Shown in pieces: positions 1-6,162 of a DNA stretch of 6,181 nucleotides; the stretch's first letter is position 1; each line of letters begins with the position of its first letter. The notes under the pieces are model-generated. The model saw nothing but the letters and a program-made list of their open reading frames with translations. It searched no databases and had not been told where the DNA came from. A program made the position numbers and the translations under genes. Origin of the DNA: Ramlibacter sp. (lineage in GTDB: Bacteria > Pseudomonadota > Gammaproteobacteria > Burkholderiales > Burkholderiaceae_C); the NCBI GenBank assembly GCA_021156245.1, contig JAJNBO010000175.1, positions 1 to 6,181 of the forward strand, in the 5' to 3' direction.

Positions 1-11
1 CCCCGCGCCCG

Positions 12-45
12 CCCTCACCCCTGCCCTCTCCCGGAGGGAGAGGGG
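12..45. repeat. GC-rich palindromic intergenic repeat
   Basis: A C-rich lead-in (12-21) is followed by a perfect 9-bp inverted repeat, CCCTCTCCC at 24-32 and GGGAGAGGG at 36-44, with a 3-base GGA loop. Elements of this form are common as dispersed intergenic repeats in high-GC Proteobacteria, from general knowledge; only one copy is visible here, so dispersal is not shown. There is no T-run after the stem, so a classical intrinsic terminator is not supported. The right arm is purine-rich and includes GGAGG at 33-37, which could double as a Shine-Dalgarno sequence for the gene that follows. Confidence 0.65.
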
Positions 46-52
46 ACAAGTC

Positions 53-124
53 CGGCGCGCGCTCGCAGGAGCCGCGCTGGTCCTCGCATTCAACGCGCCC
101 GCGGCCACTCTGACACTCGGCGTC
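53..124 (+). other. In-frame signal-peptide coding segment upstream of the first ATG of the binding protein
   Basis: Read in the frame of the ATG at 125, this stretch encodes RRALAGAALVLAFNAPAA followed by TLTLGV. That is an Arg-rich n-region, a hydrophobic core and a small-residue cleavage site, as expected for a Sec signal peptide. The binding protein needs one because this class acts in the periplasm, and the TLTLGVMQRADDERL stretch looks like the usual start of the mature domain. No ATG, GTG or TTG occurs in frame between the left edge and 125. The codon just before the arginines (50-52) is GTC, one base from GTG. The frame stays open through the repeat to the window edge, so the true start is either further left, non-standard, or altered by a base error. 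Confidence 0.75.
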
Positions 125-1219
125 ATGCAACGCGCCGACGACGAGCGGCTCGCACCGCAGCGCGTCGCTCTTGCGTACCCAGGTCAGCCTGGTGGGCCGG
201 CCACCGAAGCCGTCGAAATGGCCGTCAAGGAAAGCCAGTTCGAGCTCGATGCCGCCAAGCTGCGCGTTGTCATTGACGTGCGCGCCGCGCACAATGCAGA
301 CGAGGCCAAGACGATGCTTCAGCAGCTCGCGAAGGCGGGCGCCGCAGGCATCGTGCTCGACCTCCCGGCGACGTGGATCGCCGCCGCTGCGCCGTCCGTC
401 ACCGTGCCGCTGCTCAATGCCGGCGAGACCGCCGAGACCTTGCGCCAGCAGGGCTGCAGGCCGCATCTGTTCCACACGCTGCCGGGCGAGCGCATGGGTG
501 CCGACGCGCTCGCGCAGGCCCTGCTGGCACGCCGCTGGACGCGCGTGCTGCTGTTGCACGGCGGCAGCGCCGGCGACGCAGCGCGGCTCGAGCAGGTGCA
601 GGCCGCCCTGAAGCGCTACCGCCTGACGCCGGTGGCGGTGAAGGCCTTCAAGCTCTCGGCCGACCCGCGCGAACGCGATCTCGCCAACCCGCTGCTCCTC
701 ACCGGCACAGCCGCGCGCGGCGAGTACGACGCCGTGTGGGTCGTCGACGGCGACGGTGAGTTCGCGCGCACGCTCCCCTACCGCATCGCGCTGCCGCGGC
801 CGGTCGTGGGCGACGCGGGCCTGTCGGCGCAGGCCTGGGCGCCGCGCTTCGACCGCTACGGCGCTCCGCAGCTGGAGCGCCGCTTTGCGCGTGCCGCCCA
901 CCGGCCGATGACCGGCTTCGATTGGGCCGCCTATATCGCGGCCAAGGCGCTGTTGCAAGCGGCGCTGGAACAAGCCGCCGCGCCGAACGCTGCCCAGGTG
1001 TTGAAGGCATTGAGCCGCCCCGACTTCACGCTCGACGGCTTCAAGGGCGTGCGCCTGGGCTTTCGCGCATGGGACCGGCAACTGCGCCAGCCGCTGCTGC
1101 TCACCGATGGTGTTGCAGTAGTCGGCAGCGCGCCGGTCGATGGCGTGATGCACCCGAAGAACGTGCTCGATACGCTGGGCAGCGACGCGGCCGAGTCCGC
1201 CTGCAAGGCGGGTTTGTGA
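125..1219 (+). CDS. PQQ-dependent alcohol dehydrogenase-associated ABC transporter substrate-binding protein (5' end uncertain)
   Basis: Periplasmic ligand-binding protein of the type I fold related to the branched-chain amino-acid receptors. It resembles the family (TIGR03863) whose genes accompany PQQ-dependent oxidation of alcohols such as 2-phenylethanol. The ligand is unknown. Recognisable family stretches, numbered from the ATG at 125, are HLFHTLPGERM (114-124), a DLANPLLLTG block, RPMTGFDWAAY, DFTLDGFKGV (300-309) with RAWDRQLRQPLLL just after, and the C-terminal HPKNVLDTLG (343-352). The listed start is only the first ATG; translation in the same frame upstream gives a convincing signal peptide, so the real protein is about 24 or more residues longer. 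The stop overlaps the permease start by one base (TGATG), which suggests translational coupling. The ABC ATPase is not between them. The family call is confident; the start is not. Confidence 0.88.
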   Translation: MQRADDERLAPQRVALAYPGQPGGPATEAVEMAVKESQFELDAAKLRVVIDVRAAHNADEAKTMLQQLAKAGAAGIVLDLPATWIAAAAPSVTVPLLNAGETAETLRQQGCRPHLFHTLPGERMGADALAQALLARRWTRVLLLHGGSAGDAARLEQVQAALKRYRLTPVAVKAFKLSADPRERDLANPLLLTGTAARGEYDAVWVVDGDGEFARTLPYRIALPRPVVGDAGLSAQAWAPRFDRYGAPQLERRFARAAHRPMTGFDWAAYIAAKALLQAALEQAAAPNAAQVLKALSRPDFTLDGFKGVRLGFRAWDRQLRQPLLLTDGVAVVGSAPVDGVMHPKNVLDTLGSDAAESACKAGL

Positions 1220-2055
1220 TGCAGCGCGCACGCAACCACATCACTGCGCACGCGCTGCAAGCCTTGCGTGCCATCGTGCTGCGTGAGCTCGTCAAGTTCG
1301 GCCAGCAAAAGGGGCGGCTCATCTCGGCGCTGGTACGCCCGGTGCTGTGGCTCGCGGTGTTCGCAGCGGGCTTTCGCAACGTGTTCGGCGTCGCCATCGT
1401 CGATCCCTACGACACCTATATCCCCTACGACGTGTACATCGCGCCCGGGCTCATCGGCATGGTGCTGCTGTTCAACGGCATGCAGTCGTCGCTGGCCATG
1501 GTCTACGACCGCGAGATGGGGCTCATGCGGCTGCTGCTCACGGCGCCCCTGCCGCGCTGGTGGCTGTTGCTCGCCAAGCTGCTCGCCACCGCGCTTCTGA
1601 GCGTGGTGCAGGTGCTGGCTTTCGTGGTAGTGGCCGCGCTGCTCGGCACAACGTTGCCGATGGAGCCGCGTTCGCTGCTGCACGCCCTTGCGGCCACGCT
1701 GGCCGCGGCCTTGATGCTCGCGTCGCTGGGGTTGCTGCTGTCGGTGTATGTGCGGCAGCTGGAGAACTTCGCCGGCACGATGAACTTCGTCATCTTCCCC
1801 ATGTACTTCCTCTCCACGGCGCTGTATCCGCTGTGGAAACTGGAAGAGTCTGGCGCAACCTGGGTGTGGCGCGCCGCGCAGTTCAACCCGTTCACGCACG
1901 CCGTCGAATGGATTCGCTTCGCGCTCTACGGCAAGGACCCGGGCATGGCGCCGCTGGTCGTGCTGGGCACGTTGACCGTGTGCTTCACGCTCGCCTGCTG
2001 GGGCTACGACCCGCAGCGCGGCTTCGGCAGCCTGACGCAAAGGGGGACGGCATGA
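1219..2055 (+). CDS. ABC-2 type permease of the PQQ/alcohol-associated transporter, PedC family
   Basis: Inner-membrane permease of 278 residues, the membrane partner expected for the preceding binding protein. The ABC-2 family signature is clear in YDREMGLMRLLLTAPLPRWW (96-115), the cytoplasmic loop region that follows the second membrane span. About six hydrophobic segments can be read, near 36-52, 74-96, 115-141, 157-178, 190-206 and 250-267. The PedC family (TIGR03861) is known from the 2-phenylethanol degradation locus of Pseudomonas putida U; what it transports is not established. Pairing an ABC-2 permease, usually an exporter fold, with a periplasmic binding protein is a peculiarity of this family. 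The ATG at 1219 overlaps the upstream stop by one base and has a weak AAGGCGG ribosome site at 1205-1211. The 3' end overlaps the next gene by four bases (ATGA). The much longer open frame upstream of 1219 is a shadow of the binding-protein gene. Confidence 0.88.
   Translation: MQRARNHITAHALQALRAIVLRELVKFGQQKGRLISALVRPVLWLAVFAAGFRNVFGVAIVDPYDTYIPYDVYIAPGLIGMVLLFNGMQSSLAMVYDREMGLMRLLLTAPLPRWWLLLAKLLATALLSVVQVLAFVVVAALLGTTLPMEPRSLLHALAATLAAALMLASLGLLLSVYVRQLENFAGTMNFVIFPMYFLSTALYPLWKLEESGATWVWRAAQFNPFTHAVEWIRFALYGKDPGMAPLVVLGTLTVCFTLACWGYDPQRGFGSLTQRGTA
2039..2047 (+). promoter_or_regulatory. Ribosome binding site of the Bug-family receptor gene
   Basis: The purine run AAAGGGGGA ends four bases before the ATG at 2052. 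It lies inside the last codons of the permease gene. It supports the short frame starting at 2052 rather than any of the upstream in-frame starts, which would run through the permease. Confidence 0.6.
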
Positions 2056-3038
2056 CAACGCGTCGCAGCGCACTGCTCGTCATGGCGGCAACAGCGGCCG
2101 CGACGGCCGCACCCTGGGTACGTGCCCAGCCCGGCAGCGATGCTCCGTTTCCGCAGCGCCCCATCTCGCTGTGGGTGCCGTGGCCGGCCGGCGGTGGCAC
2201 CGACCTCACGCTGCGCCTGCTGGCCGATCTGGCCGGCCGGCAACTGGGCCAGCGGGTCGTGATCGAAAACCGCGGCGGCGCCGGCGGAACGCTGGCGATG
2301 CCGGTGCTGCAACAAGCACCTCCCGATGGCTACACGTTGGCGCAAATGCCGCAGCCGGTTTTTCGCGCGCCGCACACTCAGAGGGTCGGCTGGGACCCGA
2401 TCCGTGACACCACACCGATCCTGCAGATCAGCGGCGTCACCTTCGGCGTCCTCGTGCCCGTCGCGAGTCCCTTGCGCAGTCTCGACGATTTGCTGGCCTA
2501 CGCCCATGCCCACCCCGGCGAGTTGAGCATCGCGACCAACGGCATCGGCACCACGCCGCACTTGGTGCTGGAAGAACTGTTCACGCGGCGCGGCCTGACC
2601 TACATCCACGTTCCCTACAAGGGCACCGCAGAACAGATGGTGGCGGTTGCCTCGGGACAGGTGATGGCGGGCGTGAATTCAAACGGCTTCGCGCCGTATG
2701 TCGACACGGGGCGGCTGCGCCTGCTGGCGACATTCGGTGCGGCGCGCACACGGCGTTGGCCCAACGTGCCGACACTGAGCGAGCTGGGGCACGGCATCGT
2801 CGCCATGTCACCCTACGGCCTGGCCGGGCCGCGAGGCATGCCCGCCGGCGTGGTGCGCACGCTGCACGACGCTTTCAAGACGGCGCTGTTCGATCCGGCG
2901 CACATCGCCGAACTGGCCAGGTTCGACCAGGAGATCGCTTATCTGGACAGCGCGGACTACGGGCGGAGCATGCGAGAAGCCTATGCCGCGGAGCGGCGCG
3001 CGGTGGAGCGGCTGGGGCTCGCGGTCGCTCCAGGGTGA
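2052..3038 (+). CDS. Bug/TctC-family tripartite tricarboxylate transporter solute receptor
   Basis: Periplasmic solute receptor of 328 residues, the normal length for the Bug (Bordetella uptake gene)/TctC family. Such receptors bind small carboxylates or related compounds and normally feed a TctA/TctB membrane pair. The N-terminus MTTRRSALLVMAATAA has a twin arginine at residues 4-5, a hydrophobic core and a likely cleavage after VRA (residue 25), so export is by Sec or possibly Tat. Family marks are FPQRPISLWVPWPAGGGTD (33-51), where the PAGGG loop contributes to ligand binding, then the VIENRGGAGG stretch, PPDGYTL, and VPYKGTAEQM. No TctA or TctB gene is present, which is common for this family in Burkholderiales. 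The ligand cannot be predicted. The gene overlaps the permease upstream and the NosR-like gene downstream by four bases each, an unusual position for an orphan receptor that argues for co-expression with them. Confidence 0.92.
   Translation: MTTRRSALLVMAATAAATAAPWVRAQPGSDAPFPQRPISLWVPWPAGGGTDLTLRLLADLAGRQLGQRVVIENRGGAGGTLAMPVLQQAPPDGYTLAQMPQPVFRAPHTQRVGWDPIRDTTPILQISGVTFGVLVPVASPLRSLDDLLAYAHAHPGELSIATNGIGTTPHLVLEELFTRRGLTYIHVPYKGTAEQMVAVASGQVMAGVNSNGFAPYVDTGRLRLLATFGAARTRRWPNVPTLSELGHGIVAMSPYGLAGPRGMPAGVVRTLHDAFKTALFDPAHIAELARFDQEIAYLDSADYGRSMREAYAAERRAVERLGLAVAPG
3034..3038 (+). promoter_or_regulatory. Possible ribosome site bearing on the NosR-like start
   Basis: GGTGA here matches the 3' part of a Shine-Dalgarno sequence and stands five bases before the second in-frame GTG at 3044. 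The first GTG, at 3035, lacks a clear purine tract but forms a four-base GTGA overlap with the receptor stop, as do its operon neighbours. Either start keeps the signal peptide intact. Confidence 0.35.
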
Positions 3039-5176
3039 CGCGCGTGAATCCCGGCCGGCCTCAGCGTGTATGCCGGGCACTGGCAGTGCTTGTCGCATTC
3101 GCGCTCTGCCTCGCGAGCGCCGCGCGGGCCGGCGTGATGACCAAAGCCATGATGGAAGAGCGCTTTCCTTCGCCGCTGATCGTCGGCGAGAGGGATTCGC
3201 AGTTGCCGGTGTGGCCGATCTTCAAACAGGATGCCACCACGACGCGGCTGGCCGGCTACGTCTTCGAGTCGATCGACCTTGCGCCCATCCCCGGTTTCTC
3301 GGGCACTCCGCCGAACCTGCTGGTCGCGCTCGATGCCAAGGGCGTGTTCCTCGATGTGCGCGTGCTGTCGCAGCACGAGCCGGTCTTCCTGGACGGGCTG
3401 GGCGAGACGCCGTTGTTGCGCTTCGTCGAGCAGTACAAGGACTTGTCGTTGCAGCAGAACATCAAGATCGGCGCTGCCGGCCAGCGTGGCGGCGAGCACG
3501 GCAGGGCCAACGCCTATATCGACGGTGTGTCGAAGGCGACCGCGTCGGTGCGCATCATCAACCAGACCCTGTTGTCGGCGGCGTTGCGTGTTGCCCGCGC
3601 GAAGCTGGGCTTCGCTGCCGGCCGCGACCCCGACCGGATTGCACGCGTGCGCCGCGACACCTACGCGACCATGGACTGGGAGGCGCTGCTGCGAGCCGGA
3701 CTCGTGCAGCGAGTGCGAATCACGCGCGGCGTCGTGGAGCAGGCATTCGCCGGGACCGGCATGGCCGCAAGCGAGGGCGCATCGGACGACACCGTCGCGC
3801 AGCTGTACGTCGGCTGGCTGAACGCGCCCGTCGTTGGGCGTAACCTGCTCGGCGAAACGGGCTGGCAGCACCTGCTCGGGAGCATCGCCGATGGCGACCA
3901 CGCGTTCCTGGTGATCGGCACCGGCAGCTACAGCTTCGTCGGCGACGAGTTCGTGCGCGGCGCGGTGCCCGAACGCATCGCGCTGCGGCAGGGCGAGCTG
4001 CCGATCGAGCTGCGCGATCTCGACTTCGACGACGCGCTGAAACTGCCGGAGGCACTGCGGCATGCCGACGCGAAGGTGTTCCGCGTGATCGGCCCGGCCG
4101 GGCTCGATCCGGCCCAGCCGCTGGCCTTCGCGCTGCGCGTCACGCGCGGCAGGGGCACTCTCTATCCCGAGCGCGTGAGCCGCGACTTCCCGGTTCGTTA
4201 CGAGCTGCCGGCAAGCCAGCTGCAGTTGCCGGACAGCGACAGCAAGTCGTGGCACGGTATCTGGCGCTCGCGCGCGTGGGAGTTGGGCGTGATGGGAGCG
4301 GCGCTCGCACTGCTGGCGCTCGTGCTCGCGCAGCCTTCGTGGCTCGTGGCCGATGAGAAGCGGCTGGCGCGATTCCGCACGGGTTACCTGCTGTTCACGC
4401 TGGTGTTCATCGGCTGGTTCGCGCAAGGGCAGTTGTCGATCGTCAACATCACGGCGGTGCTGCAGGCGCTGCTCGCGGGTCGCGATCTCGGCTTCCTGCT
4501 CTACGACCCGATCAGCCTTTCGCTGTGGGCCTTCGTCGCGGTGACGCTGGTGCTGTGGGGCCGCGGCACCTTCTGCGGCTGGCTATGCCCGTTCGGCGCG
4601 CTACAGGAGCTGGTGGGCCAGCTGGCGCAAGTCCTGGGTGTGCGGCGCCGGCGGCTGCACCGCGATGTCGATGCCAGGCTAAAGGCCGTCAAGTACCTGC
4701 TGCTCGCGGGCATTCTGGGCGTTGCGACCGTCTCGGCACGTTGGACGGACCGCGTCGTGGAGATCGAGCCTTTCAAGACGGCGATCACGCTCAACTTCAT
4801 GCGCTCGTGGCCGTATGTGCTGTGGGCGGCCGGCCTGGTCCTGGCGGGCGCCTTCGTCTATAAGGGGTTCTGCCGTTACCTGTGTCCGCTTGGCGCCGGC
4901 CTTGCACTACTAGGCCGCGTGCGCGTGCTGCGCTGGATACCGCGGCGCAGCGAATGCGGCACGCCATGCCAGACCTGCCGCCACCGCTGCGACTACCAGG
5001 CGATCCGGCCGGGCGGTGCCATCGTGTACGCAGAATGTTTCCAGTGCATGGAATGCGTCGCAATCCACGAAAGTGAGGAGCGTTGCTCGCCCCTGATCGC
5101 GAAACGGCGCGAACGCGTGTTCGTCTTGCGGCCCGAGCCCGCCCGCGCGGGCGACGCGAGAGGACGCACCCCATGA
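3035..5176 (+). CDS. NosR/NirI-like membrane protein: periplasmic FMN-binding domain plus membrane iron-sulfur electron-transfer domain
   Basis: A 713-residue protein with the full NosR architecture and about its usual length. Residues 12-32 form a signal peptide ending ARA. A periplasmic FMN_bind-type domain (about 72-190) begins LAGYVFESIDLAPIPGFSG and holds the presumed flavin-attachment motif DGVSKAT (163-169), with Thr169 the likely FMN acceptor. In characterised NosR the acceptor is also a Thr, and the motif usually has Gly where this protein has Lys167. After a soluble region come about five or six membrane spans (near 417-437, 450-472, 493-510, 551-570, 592-610). Two CX3CP motifs follow the spans, CGWLCP (514-519) and CRYLCP (613-618). 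The C-terminal cytoplasmic end has cysteines at 641, 645, 648, 652 and 668, 671, 674, 684, suited to two [4Fe-4S] clusters. NosR proteins pass electrons between the quinone pool and periplasmic nitrous-oxide reductase. No nos reductase genes are seen here, so the partner may differ. The start is GTG 3035 or 3044. The gene overlaps the flavin-transferase gene by four bases. Confidence 0.9.
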   Translation: MTRVNPGRPQRVCRALAVLVAFALCLASAARAGVMTKAMMEERFPSPLIVGERDSQLPVWPIFKQDATTTRLAGYVFESIDLAPIPGFSGTPPNLLVALDAKGVFLDVRVLSQHEPVFLDGLGETPLLRFVEQYKDLSLQQNIKIGAAGQRGGEHGRANAYIDGVSKATASVRIINQTLLSAALRVARAKLGFAAGRDPDRIARVRRDTYATMDWEALLRAGLVQRVRITRGVVEQAFAGTGMAASEGASDDTVAQLYVGWLNAPVVGRNLLGETGWQHLLGSIADGDHAFLVIGTGSYSFVGDEFVRGAVPERIALRQGELPIELRDLDFDDALKLPEALRHADAKVFRVIGPAGLDPAQPLAFALRVTRGRGTLYPERVSRDFPVRYELPASQLQLPDSDSKSWHGIWRSRAWELGVMGAALALLALVLAQPSWLVADEKRLARFRTGYLLFTLVFIGWFAQGQLSIVNITAVLQALLAGRDLGFLLYDPISLSLWAFVAVTLVLWGRGTFCGWLCPFGALQELVGQLAQVLGVRRRRLHRDVDARLKAVKYLLLAGILGVATVSARWTDRVVEIEPFKTAITLNFMRSWPYVLWAAGLVLAGAFVYKGFCRYLCPLGAGLALLGRVRVLRWIPRRSECGTPCQTCRHRCDYQAIRPGGAIVYAECFQCMECVAIHESEERCSPLIAKRRERVFVLRPEPARAGDARGRTP
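5158..5164 (+). promoter_or_regulatory. Ribosome binding site of the ApbE-like gene
   Basis: GAGAGGA stands eight bases before the ATG at 5173. It selects this start over the in-frame ATG at 5083, which would put 30 unconserved residues before the signal segment and lies deep in the NosR-like gene. Confidence 0.7.
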
Positions 5177-6162
5177 AGCGGCAACGCTTCCTGCGCGCCA
5201 CGCTGGGCCTCGGTGCGCTGGCGATGCTTGGCGGCGTTGCCGCAGCCGGCCGCGGATTGCTATGGCGGCGCCGGACGCTGGTGGGCTTTGGCACCACGCT
5301 ATCGCTGCAGGCCGCGCACACGAACGAACAGACGCTGGATCGCGCGCTCGATGCGGCAGTGGCTGCATTGCGGCGCATCGATGCGCAGATGAGCCTGTTC
5401 AACGCGGCAAGCGCGCTTTCGCGCTTCAACCGCGATGGCGCTTTGCCAGCGCCGCCCGCGGAATTGCTCGAGGTGCTGGAGATTGCGCAAGCTGTTTCGC
5501 GCGGCAGCGACGGCGCGTTCGACGTCACGGTACAGCCGCTGTGGCAGGTATTCGAGGCGGCCAAGCGCGCCGGCCGCCTGCCCGACGCCCGCGAAGTGGA
5601 CGCCGCACGCGAGCGAGTCGGCTGGCGCGGCCTTGAACTGTCCGGCGAAGCGCTGCGCTTGCGCCGGCCCGGCATGGCTGTCACGCTCAACGGCATCGCC
5701 CAGGGTTATGCCGCCGACCGGGTGCGCCGGGTGCTGGTGATGCACGGTATCCGCCACGCGCTCGTGGACACTGGGGAATTCGCGATGCTCGGCCACAACG
5801 CCAATGCGCGGCCCTGGGCGCTCGGGATCGCCGACCCTCGCGACGAGACTGCTCTGGTGGCACGCCTGATGAGCGACGGCCGATGCATCGCCACGTCCGC
5901 CGACAACGAGGCGAGCTTCAGCGCCGACCACCGGCACCACCACATTTTCGATCCTCGCACCGGCTACTCGCCGCCTGCGTTGGCGGGAGTGACGGTGGCG
6001 GCCGACAGCGGCGCGATTGCCGACGCCTTGACCAAGGTGATGCTCGTCGCTGGCCCGCAGCGCGCGGTCAGTTTGGCGCGGCAGTGGAACGTCGACGTGT
6101 TGTGGGTCGACAAGGCCGGCGGATGGCGCGCCACGCCCGGCCTGCGGCTGGCCGGTTCTTGA
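5173..6162 (+). CDS. FAD:protein FMN transferase, ApbE/NosX-like
   Basis: ApbE-family enzymes use FAD to attach FMN through a phosphoester bond to a Ser or Thr of exported flavoproteins. The natural substrate here is the NosR-like protein encoded immediately upstream, with a four-base ATGA overlap. The 329-residue product is of normal family length. Residues 1-26 have basic residues and a hydrophobic core, giving an export signal or membrane anchor; the RQRFLR stretch resembles a Tat motif but lacks the twin arginine. Conserved ApbE stretches are SALSRFNRDG (80-89), GAFDVTVQPL (114-123), LNGIAQGYAADRV (172-184), HHHIFDPRTGY (255-265) and ADALTKVML (283-291). Two places differ from the classical enzyme: DTGEF (199-203) stands where DLGGN is common, and the Asp284 motif reads DALTK rather than DALST, putting Lys at the usual metal-ligand Thr position. 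From memory, NosX-type members share such changes, so they need not mean inactivity. Confidence 0.9.
   Translation: MKRQRFLRATLGLGALAMLGGVAAAGRGLLWRRRTLVGFGTTLSLQAAHTNEQTLDRALDAAVAALRRIDAQMSLFNAASALSRFNRDGALPAPPAELLEVLEIAQAVSRGSDGAFDVTVQPLWQVFEAAKRAGRLPDAREVDAARERVGWRGLELSGEALRLRRPGMAVTLNGIAQGYAADRVRRVLVMHGIRHALVDTGEFAMLGHNANARPWALGIADPRDETALVARLMSDGRCIATSADNEASFSADHRHHHIFDPRTGYSPPALAGVTVAADSGAIADALTKVMLVAGPQRAVSLARQWNVDVLWVDKAGGWRATPGLRLAGS

Follow-up and report, generated by a model that had tools for sequence, protein, structure and literature searches.

A PQQ-Linked Branch of NosR-Like Proteins with an Altered Predicted Flavin Site and Its Pairing with ExaA-Type Alcohol Dehydrogenases

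Introduction

Cytochrome c550 is described as the electron acceptor of ExaA/PedE-type periplasmic PQQ alcohol dehydrogenases. In Meheust et al. (2021, eLife, PMC8238504), flavinylated NapH-like clusters with an ethanol oxidase are reported in 172 genomes, and electron transfer from the alcohol oxidase to the respiratory chain, replacing cytochrome c, is proposed. The relay idea discussed below is not new, its function having been predicted in print there in 2021. PMC11334425, PMC11102522 and PMC12423496 were also consulted. A literature search, which mostly did not include subscription papers, returned no experimental work on a pair of NosR-like protein and PQQ dehydrogenase.

The window analyzed here, which is an entire 6.2-kb contig (6,181 nt), encodes a NosR-like protein followed by an ApbE flavin transferase. 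The pair has the same architecture and the same partner enzyme as the NapH-like/ExaA system of PMC8238504. In that study, exaA was inferred to have become associated several times independently, with cytochrome c being replaced, whereas here all sampled K-type members fall to the same side of a single branch, with one nirS-linked R-type protein standing apart, the cytochrome PedF is kept, and the flavin site is changed. The Meheust set was built from clusters linked to ApbE and contains NapH-like proteins beyond the reach of the present search, in which every query was seeded by the window protein and the sampling covered its relatives, not more distant NapH-like proteins with ExaA; the two sets of results are not in direct conflict.

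With NosR, the window protein has in common a signal segment, an FMN domain of the RnfG/NqrC type, five hydrophobic segments toward the C terminus, a pair of CX3CP motifs and two clusters of cysteines. It differs from NosR in its identity of 31–41% to the full-length nos-linked matches of the genus and class-wide searches, in the site D-G-V-S-K-A-T in place of D-x-x-[S/T]-G-A-T, in branch-marking residues and in its PQQ-gene neighbors. NirI-type proteins beside nirS resemble it in the C-terminal half and the cysteine motifs, but they are mostly shorter (501–591 aa in 16 of 19 frames), carry G at the site in 18 of 19 cases and adjoin nirS. RnfG and NqrC share the fold of the covalent-FMN domain; they are subunits of ion-pumping complexes and are without the NapH-like half.

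Results and Discussion

Gene Order and Domain Assignment in the Window

The window begins with a gene for a PedB-like substrate-binding protein of a PQQ-associated ABC transporter (2..1219, + strand), whose 5' end lies beyond the contig and whose score with TIGR03863 is 342.7 bits, under the cut-off of 413.6; the binding protein at the related locus L122 is likewise under the cut-off with 349.6, and the gene occupies the same place in L122 and in L085, a Variovorax boronicumulans plasmid. It is followed by the ABC-2 permease PedC (1219..2055, +), which exceeds the TIGR03861 cut-off of 241.35 with 355.5 bits. The upstream neighbors had been taken in a preliminary description, made from the letters of the window, for transporter genes of the kind found with PQQ-dependent alcohol oxidation, and this identification is borne out by the permease, with the incomplete binding protein remaining under its cut-off. 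A gene for a TctC/Bug-type periplasmic binding protein (2052..3038, +; PF03401, 239.9 bits) is inserted between the permease and NosR-like genes, and the same slot is occupied in L122 and L085; no TctA or TctB gene accompanies it within the 6.2-kb window.

The NosR-like membrane iron-sulfur protein with its predicted FMN domain, a member of the PQQ-linked branch, is encoded at 3035..5176 (+). Its first CX3CP motif is CGWLCP (residues 514–519, 4574..4591, +) and its second is CRYLCP (residues 613–618, 4871..4888, +). The first C-terminal cysteine cluster consists of C641/C645/C648/C652 (4955..4990, +), and the second of C668/C671/C674/C684 (5036..5086, +). ApbE, an FAD:protein FMN transferase, follows at 5173..6162 (+); it scores 226 bits with PF02424 (cut-off 25.6) and stays below the narrower ApbE model NF007774 (111.5 vs. 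498). The contig ends 19 bases past apbE, and the flanks are beyond the assembly, which is a metagenome-assembled genome (MAG) of 69% completeness. At the 5' edge, a palindrome, CCCTCTCCCGGAGGGAGAGGG, lies at 24–44 within the open frame; it is of a type found at four sites of this genome and may account for the contig end there.

In the fold comparison, residues 1–195 are RnfG/NqrC-like. The Pfam FMN_bind model gave no match to the window protein, Foldseek alone gave nothing at 0.001, and the sequence search of solved structures gave no match at 0.1; no solved NosR structure was among the fold-comparison matches, an absence that does not speak against the existence of one. The architecture of the NosR superfamily, namely an FMN domain, two CX3CP motifs and two cysteine clusters, is present in the window protein, while its score with the NosR model NF046105, 594.5 bits, is below the cut-off of 1000. 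The FMN half is predicted to be periplasmic and the iron-sulfur half cytoplasmic. What had first been noticed, a NosR-like protein with an FMN domain, CX3CP motifs and two C-terminal cysteine clusters, followed by ApbE, is confirmed.

Branch members are named "transcriptional regulator of nitric oxide reductase" or "nitrous oxide reductase regulator" in the source records, which is misleading. Together with the name of NF046105, these names would suggest a protein that senses redox state or regulates the PQQ regulon, in line with the database name "transcriptional regulator NosR". This is improbable, given that no DNA-binding domain was found among the Pfam or NCBIfam matches and that the twelve motif and cluster cysteines are invariant in a 52-row alignment.

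Gene Neighborhood in Related Loci

The flanks missing from the window were considered in the nearest relative whose neighborhood was examined (20 kb), locus L122 of the same genus, where the NosR-like copy is 87% identical. The order there is pqqB, C, D, E, an ABC ATPase, a beta-propeller protein, the binding protein, the permease, TctC, the NosR-like gene and ApbE; past ApbE, a HiPIP gene (PF01355) and a PQQ alcohol dehydrogenase gene (TIGR03075) lie on the other strand. The combination of NapH-like protein, ApbE and ExaA in one cluster, as in the Meheust system, is therefore found in L122, and the dehydrogenase side of the window lies outside the assembly. The plasmid L085 has the order of L122 with the addition of a TonB receptor, PedF and an aldehyde dehydrogenase.

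By the marker panel, which consists mainly of PQQ, nos and nirS genes, no nos genes were found in the 20 kb around the L122 copy, and the next 20 kb contain a nosF-like ABC ATPase alone, a weak match (86 bits, 32%). A nosZ-nosDFY cluster directly beside the pair would have refuted the preliminary description; in the 87% copy, the pair is instead set between the pqqBCDE-ABC genes and the PQQ alcohol dehydrogenase, and no such cluster was found. In the survey of 47 other genomes of the genus, a family match was obtained in seven, namely the 87% copy and six genomes with seven full-length copies; these seven are 35–38% identical to the window protein and each has nosZ beside it. At one same-genus locus, L125, pqqB and pqqC (17160–18831) lie about 4.5 kb beyond nosZ, and the NosR there has the ordinary G site.

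A PQQ context was defined as at least one PQQ marker gene in the locus. Among the best 80 of 577 confirmed loci, 56 have such a context (at least two marker kinds in 48, one marker only in 8), 24 have neither PQQ nor nos markers, and none has nos genes. These loci (L003–L082) were selected by similarity to the window, and the class-wide draw described below is alone free of such bias. From 222 plasmid records, 14 loci with flanks were chosen by hand. L089, a bare nosR stretch without neighbors, and the fragments L225 and L214 were left out before counting. L035 and L164 are one genome stretch with an identical protein, and they count as two in the locus tallies and as one in each of two dehydrogenase tests.

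Position in the Family Tree

A FastTree phylogeny of 169 proteins was computed after the flavin-site columns had been removed, with the fragments L225 and L214 left out. In this tree, the 90 members with K, M or R at the flavin site and 8 relatives form a group of 98 with a support of 90, and no nos- or nir-linked member lies inside. In an IQ-TREE run with a mixture model on 76 hand-picked rows (quick search, no bootstrap, unrooted), one branch splits 42 members from 34 nos/nir proteins with an SH-aLRT of 100. Both trees place the window protein outside the nos-linked clade, on the PQQ-linked side and away from every sampled nos- or nirS-linked member, as the preliminary description would have it. 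The PQQ-linked NosR branch is real and widespread.

The branch and the site residue do not coincide at every locus: L054, from a Neptuniibacter bin, lies inside the branch with the site D-G-L-T-G-A-T, and the nirS-linked L094 lies outside it with R at the site. A sub-branch of L064, L068, L069, L074, L075, L078 and L080 carries the site H/Q/F-G-V-x-x-G-T. None of these loci has PQQ neighbors; a dehydrogenase of >60% identity is present in 2 of the 7 genomes and absent above that line in 5. Their records are named as Burkholderiales or its families, and some have ApbE adjoining.

Flavin-Attachment Site and ApbE

The consensus of ApbE targets, according to PMC12052999, is D-x-x-[S/T]-G-A-[S/T]. 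The window protein departs from it with DGVSKAT: the predicted attachment site is D163-G-V-S-K-A-T169 (3521..3541, +), where Lys167 takes the usual Gly position and Thr169 is the predicted FMN carrier, on which the flavin would be placed by the neighboring ApbE. This departure follows the genomic context. All 68 loci with a PQQ context, the window included, have a residue other than Gly (K 58, M 7, R 3). Of the 48 nos-context loci, 47 aligned at the site, with G in 46 and S in 1, and one has a gap there. G is found in 18 of the 19 nirS-context loci, with R in the other, and also in the single locus where nos and pqq genes occur together. Among 35 marker-less loci, the residues are K 21, M 1, G 6, A 4, T 1 and H 1, with one gap.

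Nineteen positions are specific to the branch, of which 13 fall within residues 60–184 (including F88, F118, residue L122, G123, G164, K167 and S171); Q464 and Y665 are likewise branch markers. The twelve motif and cluster cysteines are more than 95% conserved in the PQQ-linked and nos-linked groups alike. Because the branch-specific positions are concentrated in this region while the twelve cysteines are conserved, the pattern is read as an altered flavin pocket atop an apparently unchanged electron path. The positive charge at the site would be expected to raise the flavin potential. Flavinylation at a lysine site is putative, and a G-to-A change at the site of another flavoprotein already lowered it to about 50% (PMC12052999), which speaks against it.

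A co-oriented ApbE gene follows immediately in 39 of the 90 branch loci, compared to 0 of 47 nos-linked loci, and no ApbE was found within the sequence stretch examined in 37 of the 90. The partner ApbEs show no clear compensating residue and do not form one clean clade. The literature found on NosR with PQQ or quinoproteins, largely papers open without subscription, makes no mention of the changed site. The site marker, together with the coexistence with PedF, is what the present analysis adds. A lysine site would widen the target rule of ApbE, and motif searches that demand glycine would miss the branch; the site residue would also be a simple marker separating the branch from true NosR, which the source names confuse.

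These data also bear on whether the protein is an ordinary NosR for nitrous-oxide reduction that was displaced from its nos cluster. The same cysteine set and domain order and the match to NF046105 are what such a protein would show. However, its score is 594.5 bits against 1000, its position is off the nos-linked side of the tree, its flavin site is non-canonical, and nos genes occur in 0 of the best 80 of 577 loci. An ordinary NosR is hardly conceivable here and was rejected on score, tree, site and neighbors.

Pairing with the ExaA-Type Dehydrogenase

The class-wide draw comprised 369 genomes, and 55 of them, the window's own included, gave a family match at 1e-50. By context, the 64 places in this draw are nos-linked in 35 cases, nirS-linked in 17, PQQ-linked in 2 and without such markers in 10. 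An ExaA-type dehydrogenase of at least 60% identity is present in all 7 genomes of the draw with a K/M/R-type protein (one match partial), in 0 of the 47 other family-match genomes (44 G-type, 1 S, 2 with the site not covered) and in 6 of the 314 genomes without a family match. Fisher's test of K-type against all others in the draw gives p ~1e-11, a statistic that ignores relatedness, and the 60% line was set after the list had been seen; at a looser limit of 1e-100, a dehydrogenase match of 40–47% identity appears in 3 of the 47 other genomes as well.

The pairing is genome-wide; PQQ genes are within reach of just 2 of the 7 K-type loci of the draw. It recurs in the 24 marker-less loci among the best 80 of 577, of which 16 have a K/M-type site; the dehydrogenase is encoded elsewhere in all 16 genomes (at least 62% identity, one match partial, one genome also in the class-wide draw). 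The K-type protein is optional to the dehydrogenase, since it is absent from 6 of the 13 genomes of the draw that have the enzyme. In the window's own MAG (69% complete), no dehydrogenase and no PedF match was obtained, and the sole pqqE match, 28% identical at 2e-5, was not counted. The nosZ search of the MAG with nos_propeller (PF18764) gave no match, and it gave none in any control genome either.

Cytochrome PedF and the Path of Electrons

PedF is present in 86 of the 88 loci or genomes examined. It lies within 42 of the 90 branch loci; for the other 48, a match at 4.1e-39 or better was found in 44 of the 46 genomes searched, which leave aside L164 (the same genome as L035) and the plasmid L086. 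Both misses are metagenome bins, namely that of the window itself and that of L013. PedF is also present in all 6 genomes of the class-wide draw that have the dehydrogenase without the K-type protein, so the flavin protein is optional and added on top of PedF. Meheust et al. (2021) proposed that the dehydrogenase passes its electrons to the flavin protein in place of cytochrome c550, for which the cluster data and the Figure 5A legend of PMC8238504 speak. For the present branch this is very improbable, because PedF is found in 42 of the 90 loci and in 44 of the 46 remaining genomes. Strict replacement of cytochrome c550 as a rule was rejected, as PedF is kept.

With PedF retained in nearly all cases, the relay would add a second electron exit to the cytochrome route instead of taking its place. 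Electrons from the periplasmic PQQ dehydrogenase would be taken onto the predicted covalent flavin of the NosR-family protein and would pass through the predicted iron-sulfur clusters to the quinone pool, that is, in the direction of alcohol, PQQ, FMN, Fe-S and quinone. We infer the direction, the flavinylation and the partner, and the chances that the NosR-like protein and ApbE serve alcohol-dehydrogenase electrons in this way appear to be about even. The preliminary description had the pair moving electrons between the quinone pool and a periplasmic quinoprotein or cytochrome instead of NosZ; the PQQ context and the tree favor this, and the electron transfer is still a proposal. Transfer from PQQ to flavin is possibly uphill in terms of redox potentials, which counts against the inward relay, as do the branch loci without an ApbE, the partner ApbEs with no clear compensating change, the small share of K-type loci of the draw with PQQ genes nearby and the dehydrogenase genomes that do without the protein. 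That the NosR branch was rebuilt for alcohol oxidation, with a lysine site whose positive charge tunes the flavin to accept electrons from PQQ, a dedicated ApbE and an energy-saving quinone exit beside cytochrome c550, is a tentative and on balance doubtful extension. If the inward relay is true, a widespread flavin/iron-sulfur route to quinone would alter the energy yield on alcohols, and growth without a cytochrome c oxidase would become possible.

Electrons may also flow outward, where quinol or cytoplasmic electrons would reduce a periplasmic need of the quinoprotein, such as its disulfide ring, the bound PQQ or a maturation partner. NosR is regarded as an electron donor to the periplasmic enzyme, and N2O reduction drops strongly when its flavin domain is lost (PMC12052999); for transfer to cytochrome c550, the adjacent cysteines close to PQQ are important (PMC12997753). 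PedF, nearly always present, already accepts the alcohol electrons, which leaves a reducing role open. However, PedF is also found in the 6 of 6 dehydrogenase genomes without the protein, which means that the system can be encoded without it, and no other periplasmic acceptor is common to the loci in a panel of mainly PQQ, nos and nirS genes. Outward flow is thus considered unlikely.

Besides PedF and the inward relay, a HiPIP gene was observed beside the PQQ dehydrogenase in L122 (11468–11773, −; PF01355) and L085 (20946–21287, −). A literature search combining HiPIP, quinoprotein and alcohol dehydrogenase, with subscription papers mostly outside its reach, returned nothing. The gene occurs in just 4 of the 90 branch loci, and its product could be another electron carrier.
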